64,000 nt of DNA from Bacteroidetes Order II. bacterium (GCA_016788705.1 JAEUSQ010000063.1:1-64000); one strand, 5' to 3'; shown: positions 56,916 to 64,000, counted from the stretch's first letter. Notes: generated by a model not told the origin, from the sequence alone. Translations and numbers: made by a program.

Positions 56916-57938
56916 TCAGTCAGGGTTAACGAGGTGGGAGGCACGGATGAGGGCGCTCAACTTCGCTTGTGCAGCCCCACTGTCTATGCTGGTTTTGGCC
57001 GCGACAAAGGCCTGTTCCAGATCGCCCACTTGTCCAGAGACGAAGAGAGCATATGCCGCATTCAATAGTACAATTTCGCGATGTGGTCCTTTTTCGCCAG
57101 ATAAGATCGCTTTCAGAATCCGGGCATTTTCGGTTGCATTGCCGCCTTTGAGTTGTACAGGATCTACCCGTCGAAGGCCAAACTGCTCTGGGATAACGGT
57201 TTTGTGCCATAGGTTTTGCTTGGTCGTGTACCCAAAAACATCTGTTGCCGTAGAAGTCGAAAATTCGTCTAAGCCATCGTGTGCATGAACGGCTATAACG
57301 TTTTCACTTCCCAATCTCGCCAAAATTTCGGTCATGGTATGGGCTACTTCTTTGCTGAATGCCCCCACCAATTGCCGCTTTACCCGTGCTGGATTACAAA
57401 GCGGACCTAAAATATTGAAAAATGTCCGAACGCCCAGTGCCCTCCGCACAGGCATGACGTGCCTTAGAGCGGGATGGAACAACGGGGCAAAGATGAACGC
57501 AATTCCCACTTCGTCTAAACAAACCTCCACGGCTTCTTTGCCCAACTCGGACTTCACGCCTAATGCCTCCAATACATCTGCCGAACCAGACTGGGAGGAA
57601 ACCGACCGATTGCCGTGTTTGGCTACGGTCACACCAGCCCCTGCGCAAACAAATGCAACCGTGGTCGAGACATTAAACGTGCCACTTCGGTCGCCGCCCG
57701 TACCGCAAACGTCTATCGTATTCGGATCGTTTACCTGTACGGGTATCGCATATTCACGCATCACATGGGTAAAGCCTGTCAATTCCTCGATGGTTTCGCC
57801 CCGGCTTCGGAGCCCCAATAAAAAGGCGGCTGTTTCGATTTCGGTGGTTTCGCCCCGCATCAACAAGTGCATGGCATCCTCGGCCTCGTGTCGGCTTAGG
57901 GCTTGGCCCTCGGAAATGGCCGTGAGAAATGGTCTCAT
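56916..57938 (-). CDS. trpD: Anthranilate phosphoribosyltransferase TrpD
   Basis: This 340-residue enzyme joins anthranilate to PRPP. CGTGGDRSGTFNVSTTVAFV and VTVAKHGNRSVSSQSGSADVLEALGV are the PRPP and anthranilate-binding signatures. RTFFNILGPLCNPARVKRQL and HAHDGLDEFS follow as expected. Length and motif order are normal. It lies between two small lipoprotein genes (upstream) and trpC (downstream), all on one transcript by spacing. Confidence 0.95.
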   Translation of the reverse strand: MRPFLTAISEGQALSRHEAEDAMHLLMRGETTEIETAAFLLGLRSRGETIEELTGFTHVMREYAIPVQVNDPNTIDVCGTGGDRSGTFNVSTTVAFVCAGAGVTVAKHGNRSVSSQSGSADVLEALGVKSELGKEAVEVCLDEVGIAFIFAPLFHPALRHVMPVRRALGVRTFFNILGPLCNPARVKRQLVGAFSKEVAHTMTEILARLGSENVIAVHAHDGLDEFSTSTATDVFGYTTKQNLWHKTVIPEQFGLRRVDPVQLKGGNATENARILKAILSGEKGPHREIVLLNAAYALFVSGQVGDLEQAFVAAKTSIDSGAAQAKLSALIRASHLVNPD

Positions 57939-57957: not shown

Positions 57958-58368
57958 TTATTTTTCCGGATTCCGATGGGCTGGCCGGACCATTCTTACG
58001 TCCTCTAAATCCAATTGGAATGGGCAATCAACATGTTTACAAAATTGTCCTTTTGAGGATATTTTACCACGAACAATTACCTCCATCCACATCCCAGAAG
58101 CCTCTAGGATGTCTTCGCGGTTGGTTCCATATAGGTGCTTCAACGAGTCTTTGGAGGCAGTAAACACGCGAATGCGTGCCATTGTAAACCCCCCATCTCC
58201 GGCTAAAGACCAACGTTCTTCTGGAAATGGTGCAGGGATGAAGTAGCTGAACATTTTGCTGTTATACCAACCGCGTACCGTAATCGTTTGACCGGGGCGC
58301 GGATGAAACGAGCAAGACACCTCCCAAAGGGCAAGCAGTAAGAGAGGTAATTGTCGGGCTATGGCCAT
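57958..58368 (-). CDS. Lipoprotein embedded in the trp operon (second)
   Basis: This 136-residue protein has a hydrophobic leader MAIARQLPLLLLALWEVSC with a possible lipobox cysteine at 19. A beta-rich part with ITVRGWYNSKMFSYFIPAPF and ASGMWMEVIVRGKISSKG follows, then CKHVDCPFQLDLEDVRMVRP, reminiscent of a small OB-fold-type envelope protein. It overlaps the preceding lipoprotein by ten bases and precedes trpD by 19 bases. Both lipoproteins share the unit SYFIP..FP.ERW. No family is recognised, and a role in tryptophan synthesis is unlikely. Confidence 0.8.
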   Translation of the reverse strand: MAIARQLPLLLLALWEVSCSFHPRPGQTITVRGWYNSKMFSYFIPAPFPEERWSLAGDGGFTMARIRVFTASKDSLKHLYGTNREDILEASGMWMEVIVRGKISSKGQFCKHVDCPFQLDLEDVRMVRPAHRNPEK

Positions 58369-58802
58369 TTTTCGTGCTTTTTAGGGAAAACAAGGCGAGT
58401 CATTTTAAAAGGCTTTCCTGTAAATACCCGATCGAACGTGTTTTGCGGACCAAACCCGCCCTCTTGTTTGTGGCCCGGCATACCCCGATACGTTATTTCT
58501 AAAAACCCGCCGGAAAATCCGAGCATCATTAGGTCTTCAGCTGCCCGTTGGGGGTTCTCTTCTCGCATGGCCTGTACCTCTGGCAGGATACTGGTCTCCA
58601 CCAATTGGCGATACCGTTGTTTAAAGGTGTCAGATGTTGGTGCTTCAGTCATCCAACGCTCATCAGGAAAGTCCTTGGGGATAAAATAAGACGGATACCC
58701 GCCGCCATAATATCCCTCATAGGCTCCATAACGTCCTGACGGATCGCCACCGCATCCAAAAAAGCTGGTGAATCCGAAAATGGTAACCCAAATCAATCTC
58801 AT
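58359..58802 (-). CDS. Lipoprotein embedded in the trp operon (first)
   Basis: This 147-residue protein starts MRLIWVTIFGFTSFFGC with a lipobox cysteine at 17. A glycine/tyrosine-rich stretch (YGAYEGYYGGGYPSYFIPKD) and a helical region (DTFKQRYRQLVETS) follow, then a C-terminal beta part ending in basic residues. Its ATG overlaps the trpG stop by four bases (ATGA), so translation is coupled to trpG. It shares SYFIPKDFPDERW with the next gene, suggesting a common origin. Function unknown. Confidence 0.8.
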   Translation of the reverse strand: MRLIWVTIFGFTSFFGCGGDPSGRYGAYEGYYGGGYPSYFIPKDFPDERWMTEAPTSDTFKQRYRQLVETSILPEVQAMREENPQRAAEDLMMLGFSGGFLEITYRGMPGHKQEGGFGPQNTFDRVFTGKPFKMTRLVFPKKHEKWP

Positions 58803-59383
58803 ACGGTTCTCAGTATGCGTTCTACCCAATTTTTAATAATTTTACCGCCGCCCGATTGCAGCGTGAGGATGCTTTCAGGATGAAACTGAACGCCTTCTAC
58901 CGGGTGCATTTTGTGACGCAGGCCCATAATGGTGCCGTCTTCCACCCATGCGGTTACTTCCAAAGCGTTCGGTAATGATCCTCTATCTACCGCCAACGAG
59001 TGATAACGGGTGGCTGTAAGTGGATTTGGAACGTCCTGGAAAACGCCCGCATTTTGGTGAAAAACCGGACTTGTTTTGCCGTGCATGAGAGTTTTCGCGT
59101 ATGTCACCGTTCCGCCATACGCCTGCCCAATTGCCTGGTGGCCCAAACAAATACCCAACATCGGAATTTCTGCACCCAAAGAGTGGATCAATTCTGGCAT
59201 AACCCCCGCCTCTTCCGGGCGTCCTGGTCCGGGCGAGAGCAGTATTCCCGCAGGTCGAAAGGCCCGAATCTCTGCCAATGTCCATTCATCGTTTCGGATT
59301 ACTTCTACGTCTGGAGTAATGGCGCCTACTAGATGCACCAAGTTATAGGTAAAACTATCGTAGTTGTCAATAAACAAAATCAT
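58799..59383 (-). CDS. trpG: Anthranilate synthase glutamine amidotransferase subunit TrpG
   Basis: This 194-residue class I glutamine amidotransferase releases ammonia for anthranilate or aminodeoxychorismate synthase. It has ILFIDNYDSFTYNLVHLVG, ILLSPGPGRPEEAG, the nucleophile cysteine in MLGICLGHQAIGQAYGG, and the His-Glu pair in VEGVQFHPESILTLQ. It may serve both TrpE and PabB. trpE is not in the window. ATG 59383 is the family start, preferred over the longer upstream frame. First gene of the trp operon. Confidence 0.93.
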   Translation of the reverse strand: MILFIDNYDSFTYNLVHLVGAITPDVEVIRNDEWTLAEIRAFRPAGILLSPGPGRPEEAGVMPELIHSLGAEIPMLGICLGHQAIGQAYGGTVTYAKTLMHGKTSPVFHQNAGVFQDVPNPLTATRYHSLAVDRGSLPNALEVTAWVEDGTIMGLRHKMHPVEGVQFHPESILTLQSGGGKIIKNWVERILRTV

Positions 59384-59604
59384 ACATATAGGTCGGTTTA
59401 AGATGCGATAACCCAATGCCAAACTACAACACAGAACCGCTTCCGTTTTATAATTCGGTATGGACTTTGGGAGGAATAAACGCCCTGGTATTCTTGTATG
59501 CGTGTTTTTAGTTTAATAGGTCTTATGAGGTGCGGAGGATGGTTTTGGGCATCCTGTATTTACGATGTCCCAAGCCCTATAAGCTAATCTCTTTAAAATC
59601 GTGT

Positions 59605-60536: not shown

Positions 60537-61499
60537 TTAGTGTCCAATTTTGGTCAGTACCCACGTTTTTTGGACTGGGTCGTATCGAAAGGTATAAGGC
60601 GTTTCTTGGCGTTCGGAGGGGGCAATGAGGTTAAAGTAAAACTCCACGCCGCTAATTGTAATATCCCCGTTTTCGGCGATGCGAATTTTCCGTGCGCGGT
60701 CATCTCCTCGTGTGCCAATGCCCTCCAAGGAGAGTACAAACTCCGGCTTCCCGACAAACTTCCCATCCGATGCCAACTCCACCATATAAATTTCTGGCGT
60801 TCGGGCTTCACCATAGATCATCCGTTTTTTGCCTTCAAAGGTGAATACCCCGACGCCAAAGGCGTCCACATCCGGTATTACATCTAGAATAGTGGGTTTT
60901 TCTCCTGTCTGTATGGCATATATCCTTCCGCGCTCGTTTGTGCGATCCGAGCCTTGTACCGAACTGGCATAGATGATACCGATTTCGCAATCATAACCCA
61001 TGCCGAGTACGCCATATGGATTTTGTTCATTGGGTTTATAAATAGTCGGAAGGGTGAAGTACGGCTTTAATTCTGCCGAGTTGGGATCCACCCGATATAG
61101 CATATTTTGCTTGGATGGCTTATTGCGGTAGAGGTTGACAAATGGCAAAGGTGCAAGAAAAATATTCCCGCGTGGGTCTATAACCATCGGGCCAAAATAT
61201 CCGGCGGTCTTCCAAGAAGGATGCTGATAGATGTTAGGTTTCTGTTTTGGATTGGGAGGCGTCGGTGCGTTTGGCAGGTTCACTTCGGTATAAATCAATC
61301 CTACGTACTGCATATTGGAGGTACTGAAGGCCGAACGTAGTGGATCTATGCTGGTACTTCGGGTGAAAGCAGGCGAGCGCCGACAATCCGGTTGCCCTTT
61401 TGCCAGAGAAGCGGTTGGTTGTGTTCCTTGTGCAAGCAAGGGTGTTATGGTGGCAATCATCCCCACAATTCCGAGTAGGCTATTCAGCAGATGCTTCAT
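60537..61499 (-). CDS. Secreted propeller-like protein of the redox cassette
   Basis: This 320-residue protein has a signal MKHLLNSLLGIVGMIATITP (cleavage near LLAQGT) and repeats of strand-turn units such as MVIDPRGNIFLAPLPFVN, GMGYDCEIGIIYASSVQG, RGRIYAIQTGEKPTIL and VGVFTFEGKKRMIYG. This resembles an extracytoplasmic beta-propeller. No recognised family, no metal-ligand pattern obvious. It is 73 bases downstream of the amine-oxidase-like gene and should be co-transcribed with it and with the di-heme gene. Confidence 0.7.
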   Translation of the reverse strand: MKHLLNSLLGIVGMIATITPLLAQGTQPTASLAKGQPDCRRSPAFTRSTSIDPLRSAFSTSNMQYVGLIYTEVNLPNAPTPPNPKQKPNIYQHPSWKTAGYFGPMVIDPRGNIFLAPLPFVNLYRNKPSKQNMLYRVDPNSAELKPYFTLPTIYKPNEQNPYGVLGMGYDCEIGIIYASSVQGSDRTNERGRIYAIQTGEKPTILDVIPDVDAFGVGVFTFEGKKRMIYGEARTPEIYMVELASDGKFVGKPEFVLSLEGIGTRGDDRARKIRIAENGDITISGVEFYFNLIAPSERQETPYTFRYDPVQKTWVLTKIGH

Positions 61500-61572
61500 G
61501 GTGTAAGGGTATATATTTATTGCAGATGGATTACTTTTTTGTATGGTTTGGGACGTAAGTCGTTTTTTATGG

Positions 61573-63291
61573 TCATGGCTTCAGGCCGAGTGGTACAAAG
61601 AGCGGTCCGGAAAGGCACGGATAGGTGCGTGTGGCATACACGCCTTGTTCGTTGATGTAGCTGTCTGCCCAACAAAATTCACGCCCCGGTGTGTCATCGT
61701 TCCGAATTTGAGGCACATACCACATCACCAACGGAGCTTTACTGATGGCCTCTGGCGGTGACATAAACTTCTCTGGCCCCTGTTGATGGTCGCTATTGCA
61801 ACAAGGCCCGATGGTGATCAGGTCCGAGTCACCTTCGTCTTTTGCCGGATTGCGTTTGGTTACAAAGACATAAGCGTTATCACTTCTTTTGTGCTCGTAG
61901 AGTTGCCCGCTGTTTGCCGCCATGTAGAATCCGTTTCCGGTGGCATCCTGAATTTTATACTGATACCCTTCCTTTGTATAGGTGGTGGAAGGTTTTTGGA
62001 GTTGCCATTTTTCGGTTTTCCAAGTCATCCACTTGCCATTCCGCCACTCGGAGAAGGTAAACGGTTTGGCAGGGAATGCAATGCGTGTTACCGGGCGGTA
62101 AGTTCCATTGTTGCCACATCCACGGCCATGATTGGCCGCAGAGACACGGAAGCGGCCATCGTTATAGAACTCGAAGCGTTGTTGATATTTGTAGTTGCAG
62201 GCTTGCGGCCACAATTCACTAAAGAAATCCTGTACAATGGTAAATCCGACAGATTGGTTGTTTTCTATTAGGTCACTTACCAATGGCGGATCTATGGCTA
62301 TGACGGCGGCTGTGCTGAAATAGGGGCAACCTATGGCGTCGCTGTATCCAAAGCCCTCTGGCTCAGAATAACTCACATGCCAGTCCACCAATTTGGCACT
62401 GTCTATAACAGGCTTACCCTTGAATACGGCATTCGAAACCTGAAGTCCGTCGGAACTGGTGATGATATAGTTCATTTTCCAGCCATTGCGTTCGATGGAA
62501 AGTGGCAGGGTGCAGTATTTTTCGGTGATTTCTTCGTTTTGGAATTTGCGCTCGGTCATTTGTGGCGTGGGGCCAGGTGTTCCCACATTCGTCCATCGCA
62601 CACCCACCAATTTCATCTCGGTCAGGTTTACAATAGCCCAGAGGGCACGATCCCCTTTTATGAACGTAGGAGCCACACAGAGGTGTTTCGAGCGTTCACA
62701 ACGGGTTTGGTTGAGGGCCGTTTTGGTGTCGGACATCAACGCTTGGTCGGTGCTTGGTTTAAATCCCAGCGCCGCCGCTACTTCTGGCGCATTGACCGCA
62801 ATTTCTAAGGCCACGTCTTTTAGAAACGTCGGAATATTGGGCTGCGCCTGATTCATTATATAACCGTCCAACATGGCATTACTGGCCGTATGTACCAAAC
62901 CAACCGTCGTAATATTGAGTGGATAGTTATACATTTCTACCCTAAAGCAGGTGCCAGAGGCACAAGCAGTTGTAATTTGTTCCGAGCGAAAATCGGTGGG
63001 TCGTGCCTGATAAATCCCGAAGATTTCGTTACGAAGCGGTTTGTTGGTGTCTTTTTCGAACAAGTTTTGCTTAAAAAACGGATGCTGGAGGGCCACATCT
63101 TGGGCGAATTGTTGCTGCGCCGTTAGGTTTTCGAGTTTAATGACCGGAACGGAACTTTGGAGGGCGGTGGCAATTTTTGCTTGGGCTTTGCGCAGCAAGG
63201 TGGTTTGCGTAGTATCTGATTGGGCTAAGCCTGCCTGGGATACCAAGAAGCATCCCAAAACGGTGGCGATAAGCAGTCGAATCGGTTTCAT
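61573..63291 (-). CDS. Secreted copper-amine-oxidase-like protein with altered active site
   Basis: The 572-residue secreted protein has a signal MKPIRLLIATVLGCFLVSQAG, then a layout like copper amine oxidases. Segments NYPLNITTV, APEVAAALGF and ALWAIVNLTEMKLVGVRW match the N2/N3 type, then AIGCPYFSTAAV and a catalytic-core-like stretch ACNYKYQQRFEFYNDGRFRV (365-383). That stretch resembles the NY(D/E)Y site where a Tyr becomes topaquinone, here NYKY. HxH and the third copper His in LWY..HIPR.ED are not visible (VMWYVPQIRNDDTPGRE instead). So it is probably an amine-oxidase fold with lost or changed chemistry. Assignment is from memory of family motifs. Confidence 0.55.
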   Translation of the reverse strand: MKPIRLLIATVLGCFLVSQAGLAQSDTTQTTLLRKAQAKIATALQSSVPVIKLENLTAQQQFAQDVALQHPFFKQNLFEKDTNKPLRNEIFGIYQARPTDFRSEQITTACASGTCFRVEMYNYPLNITTVGLVHTASNAMLDGYIMNQAQPNIPTFLKDVALEIAVNAPEVAAALGFKPSTDQALMSDTKTALNQTRCERSKHLCVAPTFIKGDRALWAIVNLTEMKLVGVRWTNVGTPGPTPQMTERKFQNEEITEKYCTLPLSIERNGWKMNYIITSSDGLQVSNAVFKGKPVIDSAKLVDWHVSYSEPEGFGYSDAIGCPYFSTAAVIAIDPPLVSDLIENNQSVGFTIVQDFFSELWPQACNYKYQQRFEFYNDGRFRVSAANHGRGCGNNGTYRPVTRIAFPAKPFTFSEWRNGKWMTWKTEKWQLQKPSTTYTKEGYQYKIQDATGNGFYMAANSGQLYEHKRSDNAYVFVTKRNPAKDEGDSDLITIGPCCNSDHQQGPEKFMSPPEAISKAPLVMWYVPQIRNDDTPGREFCWADSYINEQGVYATRTYPCLSGPLFVPLGLKP

Positions 63292-63336
63292 GTATGTTGA
63301 GATTGAACAAATGATAGATTGAACAATTGATAGAGA

Positions 63337-64000
63337 TCAATATTTTCCGACGGTGGGTGGGTGTTCCCAGATGTCTGGAGGGCGCAAAAAGTCGGGATTG
63401 CGCAAAACGGTCGAGTCTGTAAGGGCACGCAGGAAGGCCAATAGGTCTTCGCGCTCGCGTTTGGTTAGGGCGAAGGGCTTCATCTTATCGCTTTTGTGCG
63501 GATTGTTTCGTCCATCGCCCGCATAAGGGCCGGCAGTGACATTCCGTCCGGCCTTTTCAAAGAAGGTTAGTACTTCTTCCAACGTTTCGATGCTGCCGTC
63601 GTGCATATAAGGCGGGGTGAGTTCCACATTTCGCAAGGATGGGGTCTTAAAGCGTCCGCGGTCTTCTGGCTTTTTGGTAAACGTATAAAGCCCTTGGTCA
63701 TAATCGGGGTAGTCTCCTTTTCCACCCACATTATACAGCCCGATATTGTGGTAGCCCTCGGTCTCGGCGTCGTGGCGGTTATCGGTGAAATACGGTGTTG
63801 GGTGGCAAGTTGCGCATTGAAGCCTTTGGGAGTTAAAGAGCCGTTCACCACGTCGTGCGGCGGTAGTCATTGCCCGTTTCTCGCCACGTTTAAAACGGTC
63901 ATAAGGGCTGTTAAACGAATTGAGTGTGCGGACGTAAACACCCATTGCAAGCAACGCATTGTCCCAGCGCATTGGATCTGAATCCTTAGGAAAGGCGCGG
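63337..64000 (-). CDS. Di-heme cytochrome c peroxidase/MauG-family protein (partial)
   Basis: The frame is open through the right edge and encodes at least the C-terminal 221 residues, starting before the window. It has one CxxCH heme motif, QCATCHPTPYFTDN, then HNIGLYNVGG, FKTPSLRNVELTPPYMHDGS and LTKREREDLLAFLRALTD, the pattern of CcpA/MauG-family peroxidases. The second heme motif is outside the window. These periplasmic enzymes use peroxide, or in MauG mature a protein-derived quinone cofactor. It lies 45 bases upstream of the amine-oxidase-like gene, so the two are probably one operon. Confidence 0.88.
   Translation of the reverse strand, partial: RAFPKDSDPMRWDNALLAMGVYVRTLNSFNSPYDRFKRGEKRAMTTAARRGERLFNSQRLQCATCHPTPYFTDNRHDAETEGYHNIGLYNVGGKGDYPDYDQGLYTFTKKPEDRGRFKTPSLRNVELTPPYMHDGSIETLEEVLTFFEKAGRNVTAGPYAGDGRNNPHKSDKMKPFALTKREREDLLAFLRALTDSTVLRNPDFLRPPDIWEHPPTVGKY

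Follow-up and report, generated by a model that had tools for sequence, protein, structure and literature searches.

Organization of the locus

The window, by which we mean the whole 64,000-nucleotide stretch of DNA that was analyzed, ends within a run of three adjacent minus-strand genes (60537-64000).

60537..61499, minus strand: gene for an exported beta-propeller protein of 320 aa with a predicted lactonase/SMP30-type fold (VIA, Foldseek, adjacency to the CuAO-like gene in two phyla)
61573..63291, minus strand: gene for an exported, copper-less protein of 572 aa resembling copper amine oxidases (CuAO-like; predicted fold, profile-profile match, weak match to PF01179)
63337..64000 in the window, minus strand: gene for an MbnH-family di-heme c-type protein (TIGR04039, 6e1c, two CxxCH motifs)

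The gaps are 73 bases between the propeller and CuAO-like genes and 45 bases between the CuAO-like and di-heme genes, and these coordinates agree with those of an earlier note made on this DNA. The same note took all three proteins to be secreted, and N-terminal signal or anchor sequences are recognizable by eye on each. Contig C63 runs on past the window edge to 71,008 bases, giving the full di-heme gene of 379 aa, which spans C63:63337-64476 and has its start codon at 64476. Methyltransferase-like and WYL-type regulator genes, named from sequence reading only, lie upstream of the di-heme gene on that strand. No relative was found among plasmid records. A literature search, which covered the MbnH literature only in part, returned no report of a CuAO-like protein paired with MauG or MbnH.

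Predicted folds of the CuAO-like and propeller proteins

The CuAO-like protein scored 23.2 bits against PF01179, below the cut-off of 27, and 8/8 family members tested matched that family weakly. Its structure was predicted from six aligned relatives with a mean pLDDT of 65 (below 50 at residues 305-319 and 490-511), a modest confidence at which active-site geometry is not readable. In a Foldseek search of the PDB the top rows were all copper amine oxidases (E 5e-17), as were those of VIA (Z about 21, rmsd about 3.4 A over 258 catalytic-domain residues), some of whose alignments start at residue 56. Profile-profile comparison gave a match to CuAO at 96% with 14 family sequences and 98.5% with a larger set. 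Neither the single protein nor an 8-row profile matched any solved-structure sequence, despite the clear CuAO fold of the model. Modeling thus shows a predicted CuAO fold for the 572-aa protein, and the amine-oxidase-like identity proposed in the earlier note is upheld at this level.

The third protein, described previously as propeller-like, is a beta-propeller by predicted fold. The best VIA rows for its model (pLDDT 67) were lactonase/SMP30-type propellers (Z 15.6, rmsd 3.2 A over 209 residues) and the Foldseek E value was 1.8e-6. No Pfam family matches the propeller protein, and NCBIfam has no family for it or for the CuAO-like protein.

Active-site tyrosines are retained without copper ligands

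Residue counts were taken from an alignment of 32 members of the CuAO-like family. The positions discussed below are as follows.

62368..62370, minus strand: Tyr308, counterpart of the CuAO tyrosine that hydrogen-bonds O4 of topaquinone (TPQ), Tyr305 in HPAO-1; invariant (32/32)
62338..62340, minus strand: Asp318; invariant (32/32) and present in three bridging homologues, alignment ambiguous
62185..62196, minus strand: NYKY, residues 366-369, the topaquinone-precursor site; Tyr367 and Tyr369 invariant (32/32)
62098..62106, minus strand: Gly396-Thr397-Tyr398, at the position of the CuAO copper pair His-x-His; Tyr at 398 in 32/32
61795..61809, minus strand: GPCCN, with the conserved adjacent cysteine pair C497/C498; absent from aligned CuAO sequences
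61699..61701, minus strand: Asn531, at the third CuAO copper histidine; Asn in 28, Thr in 3 and not sequenced in 1 of the 32

The NYKY motif, previously assigned to a topaquinone-type site, was confirmed at residues 366-369. N366, before the precursor tyrosine, is present in 29 of the 32 sequences. The residue after Tyr367, Asp or Glu in CuAO, is Lys in the window protein and other non-acidic residues in relatives. Tyr308 corresponds to the tyrosine that in HPAO-1 (Tyr305) hydrogen-bonds TPQ O4 (PMC3382800). The register of D318 relative to the CuAO catalytic-base aspartate differs between alignments; because a Y-x-D comes after the partner tyrosine in the CuAO-like protein, past a shortened loop, Asp318 could be that catalytic base. 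C365 and C392, both invariant, lie on either side of the site.

None of the 32 sequences has His at 396, 398 or 531, so that the absence of copper histidines reported for the window protein extends to the family. Position 396, that of the first copper histidine, is Gly in 28/32, the residues found there being Gly, Ala, Pro and Ser. Nor did the 32 sequences contain an alternative set of three conserved histidines: the only mostly-His columns are 203 and 305, neither at a copper position. The register of the His pair was fixed by the homologue L043, which carries the full set of copper histidines and shows no gap across the pair when aligned, and that of the third histidine rests on a common W-x6-(H/N) spacing. 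PF01179 matches were found in four order-level relatives, and L040, L042 and the long protein L043 served as bridging homologues; a match in L041 looked like a chance frame and was set aside. By eye, L043 (L043:6923-11044) is a 1373-aa exported protein with an N-terminal part that resembles a short copper amine oxidase and has the three copper histidines, followed by repeated extracellular-type domains.

The alignment therefore shows that the CuAO-like protein keeps the TPQ-precursor tyrosine and its partner tyrosine and lacks all three copper histidines. Because the copper ligands, a defining feature, were looked for and are missing, we do not class the protein as a copper amine oxidase. Another metal might instead sit in the old copper pocket, held by residues such as Cys, Tyr, Asn or His305, with the neighboring proteins giving electrons. 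The near-invariant H305, the invariant Y398 and the ten invariant cysteines of an eight-sequence alignment would suit such a site. However, disulfides are the simpler explanation for an even cysteine count in an exported protein, and no known motif was recognized; we consider an unrelated metal enzyme quite improbable.

The di-heme protein belongs with MbnH

The claim that the neighboring gene encodes a di-heme protein of the CCP/MauG family holds as to the hemes, but the protein is better named a member of the MbnH family than of MauG. It scored 372.3 bits against TIGR04039 (MbnH), above the cut-off of 362.85, and 168 bits against TIGR03791 (MauG), far below the cut-off of 443.85. The closest solved relative is 6e1c, "Di-heme enzyme" (E 4.6e-76). 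Two positions within the window are of interest.

63802..63816, minus strand: CATCH, the second heme-binding motif, C221-H225
63559..63561, minus strand: Phe306, at the position of the MauG axial ligand Tyr294 (alignments to relatives and to 6e1c)

The first heme motif (C68-H72) falls outside the window. Both CxxCH motifs and the acid-base Glu are invariant in 32 aligned di-heme sequences. The MauG-type axial position is Tyr in 27 of the 32 relatives aligned and Phe in all three genomes of the window's genus; in L030 and L033 the bridging Trp is Ala. The Tyr ligand is required for the bis-Fe(IV) state in MauG and BthA, and Tyr-to-His mutants of both lose the bis-Fe(IV) signature, although the peroxidase activity of BthA persists (PMC6405878). 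The cassette di-heme protein at L010:1177-2157 has lost about 50 residues in the region of the second heme pocket and looks to be decaying.

In a tree of the 32 di-heme proteins the cassette members did not form one clade, three changes being needed, so they need not be one dedicated subfamily. No MbnP gene (TIGR04052) was found near the cassette, the only match in the genome being below cut-off on contig C7. Two more MauG-superfamily genes are present in this genome (G000), at C7:108861-110620 (L127) and C50:163804-165553 (L122). The former adjoins the MbnP-like match and the latter a small lipoprotein that resembles MbnP by eye.

The gene neighborhood is conserved in two phyla

Conserved gene order, for which the earlier note proposed a search, was found. 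Among 13 Bacteroidota genomes, three of them from one genus and some others near relatives, the di-heme gene lies directly upstream of the CuAO-like gene in 12; the exception, G576, has a different gene in that place and is represented by a short contig. In 12/12 genomes that could be judged, the propeller gene is an immediate neighbor. Two gene orders occur, the propeller gene either preceding the di-heme gene or following the CuAO-like gene, and survival of the linkage through this rearrangement argues for selection. The CuAO-like family is patchy in Bacteroidota, occurring in 7/149 genomes of one taxonomic family and 4/394 in a sample of the phylum.

CuAO-like matches were present in 21/301 Chloroflexota genomes, and in 11 genomes the CuAO-like gene is paired with the propeller gene. 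A di-heme gene adjoins the CuAO-like gene in G850 and is about 3.4 kb away in G770; in G802, G698 and G834 it is adjacent and divergent, with an in-frame stop codon in two of the three. Five other genomes carry the CuAO-like gene alone. These data show joint inheritance of the CuAO-like protein and the propeller in two phyla; an MbnH/MauG-type di-heme protein accompanies them in most but not all cases. The earlier observation stands and reaches further than was claimed: the whole family lacks the copper ligands, the TPQ tyrosine never varies, and the gene set is shared between phyla.

The conservation of the family bears on whether the CuAO-like protein is a catalytically dead scaffold that binds a ligand or a surface protein, next to an ordinary di-heme peroxidase. 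Loss of all three copper ligands, a PF01179 score under the cut-off and the recurrence of a giant SdrD_B surface protein beside the cluster are consistent with decay of function. On the other hand, 140 positions are invariant among 14 sequences, in a core that takes in the old active site, and identity between the phyla is about 50%, compared to about 37% for the less conserved partner proteins. We regard a dead scaffold as unlikely.

Genomes without the di-heme gene and fusions to cytochrome c

Six Chloroflexota genomes (G682, G647, G714, G706, G638 and G885) keep the CuAO-like and propeller pair, and no CCP/MauG-family gene was found in them by either search, in which positive controls matched. 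The five CuAO-like proteins aligned from these genomes keep the active-site residues and are 90-96% identical, so the six count as a single lineage and probably a single event. In the genomes lacking the di-heme gene no substitute cytochrome was identified, and no W, Y or C in the alignment was confined to lineages with a di-heme gene, as a modified residue might be.

Two other Chloroflexota proteins (L119:3774-5930 and L129:4730-6952) consist of a copper-less CuAO-like domain followed by a C-terminal mono-heme cytochrome c (CxxCH) domain. The active-site tyrosines are kept and hydrophobic stretches are present at both ends. The two are 56% identical to each other and distant from the window protein (25% identity). 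The fusions show that the CuAO-like domain goes with c-type heme even without the di-heme partner.

Maturation or electron transfer

Topaquinone is taken to arise through copper-driven self-processing, and MauG is tied to the formation of TTQ in methylamine dehydrogenase. From the MauG precedent the earlier note proposed that the di-heme enzyme might modify its amine-oxidase-like neighbor and so open a cofactor route without copper. In such a scheme, copper-driven self-processing would give way to an MbnH-like enzyme that uses peroxide to form a protein-derived cofactor at Tyr367, or at a Trp or Cys close by. The premises stand (fold, tyrosine, lost ligands, di-heme neighbor and synteny), and the three outcomes that the note named as refuting, a missing fold match, a lack of synteny and intact copper ligands, did not arise. 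Several points favor the scheme: characterized relatives are linked to modification of a co-encoded partner, the di-heme protein passes the MbnH cut-off, no MbnP-family gene lies near the cassette, and the TPQ tyrosine is retained although the copper that CuAO needs for self-processing (PMC3382800) is lost. Among the relatives, CorB/SACCP has been tied to kynurenine formation in CorA/MopE, as a suggestion only (PMC3912023). Yet as a general route the scheme is weakened by the six genomes of one lineage that keep the active-site residues without CCP/MauG, and by Phe306 in the window's genus. The deleted region in L010, the bridging Trp replaced by Ala in L030/L033, and the failure to find a W, Y or C confined to di-heme-bearing lineages count against it as well. 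Overall we consider maturation by the di-heme protein somewhat unlikely.

The reading we favor, with a probability of about 0.42, is that the CuAO-like protein is a copper-free redox protein of CuAO fold that gives electrons to c-type heme. Without copper, topaquinone would be neither made nor re-oxidized by the standard CuAO route, and with that route closed the protein would work as a copper-free oxidoreductase, a dehydrogenase and not an oxidase, within an exported redox unit. Its tyrosine-based site, modified or not, would pass electrons to c-type heme. In most lineages the acceptor may be the separate di-heme protein; the two Chloroflexota fusions would use their own mono-heme cytochrome c, and lineages that lack a di-heme gene a different acceptor. 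The propeller would serve as a subunit for docking or for binding substrate. The di-heme protein might act a single time, in maturing the site, or at each turnover, or in both ways; that the heme partner is replaceable favors a role in electron transfer, and it is mainly the CuAO-like/cytochrome c fusions that lead us to prefer electron transfer over one-time maturation. The combination of the two, a cytochrome-coupled, copper-free dehydrogenase of CuAO fold in which a peroxide-using di-heme enzyme builds a quinone or other cofactor from Tyr367, is in our estimate improbable.

Comparison with known systems

The cassette shares features with several systems. Copper amine oxidases (PF01179; TynA, AGAO, HPAO) have the same fold and domain order, the Asn-Tyr-x-Tyr site and the TPQ-partner tyrosine (Y308). 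In contrast to these enzymes, the CuAO-like protein lacks the copper histidines and the Asp/Glu after the precursor Tyr, has extra conserved cysteines, is about 16% identical, and sits with propeller and di-heme genes. The MbnH/MbnP and CorB/CorA (SACCP/MopE) pairs likewise place the di-heme gene beside that of a dedicated exported partner, and MbnH is of the same di-heme family (TIGR04039); here, however, the partner is a CuAO-fold protein and not MbnP or CorA, a propeller is added, and in the window's genus Phe occupies the axial-ligand position.

Methylamine dehydrogenase with MauG also combines a MauG-superfamily protein, a propeller and a candidate protein-derived quinone. The parallel drawn earlier between its propeller and that of the cassette holds for the propeller fold, but the likeness is weak: the best matches are lactonase/SMP30-type, the MauG equivalog score is far under the cut-off, and no small TTQ (tryptophylquinone) subunit is encoded nearby. 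Quinohemoprotein amine dehydrogenase, also exported, is a single enzyme made up of a quinone subunit, a di-heme subunit and a propeller, although its subunit folds are unrelated to the cassette proteins. The enzyme that matures it is a flavoprotein (PMC7876137). The methanethiol oxidase operon (mtoX, SCO1/SenC, mauG) likewise has a conserved set of genes, among them a MauG-like one, and a cofactor proposed to be protein-derived (PMC5739008), but it has no CuAO-fold protein, and no SCO1 gene was recognized beside the cassette.

The family spans two phyla, has given up the copper site but not the precursor tyrosine or what surrounds it, and is co-inherited with a di-heme enzyme from a family of modifying enzymes. 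It thereby opens to direct test the question of whether a CuAO-type site can be built or used without copper. MbnH-family enzymes gain a candidate partner other than MbnP. If the di-heme protein did build a cofactor from Tyr367, active CuAO-type sites would arise by two routes, the second of them free of copper.

Other genes near the cassette

In both phyla the surroundings of the cassette repeatedly include a very large SdrD_B surface protein whose N-terminal half is conserved (L007:1303-5487, L018:13021-17175, L027:540-4643, L030:10158-13166, L138:2-1459, L160 and others). It is a single match within about 10 kb of the cassette in several Chloroflexota and is multicopy in the window's genus. 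We did not count it as part of the cassette, as it is multicopy in several Bacteroidota.

Elsewhere in the window, two small exported proteins sharing a YFIP-x-FP-ERW motif are encoded on the minus strand (57958-58368 and 58359-58829) within a run of trp genes (trpG-like, 58799-59422; trpD-like, 56916-57938). The two look like paralogues.
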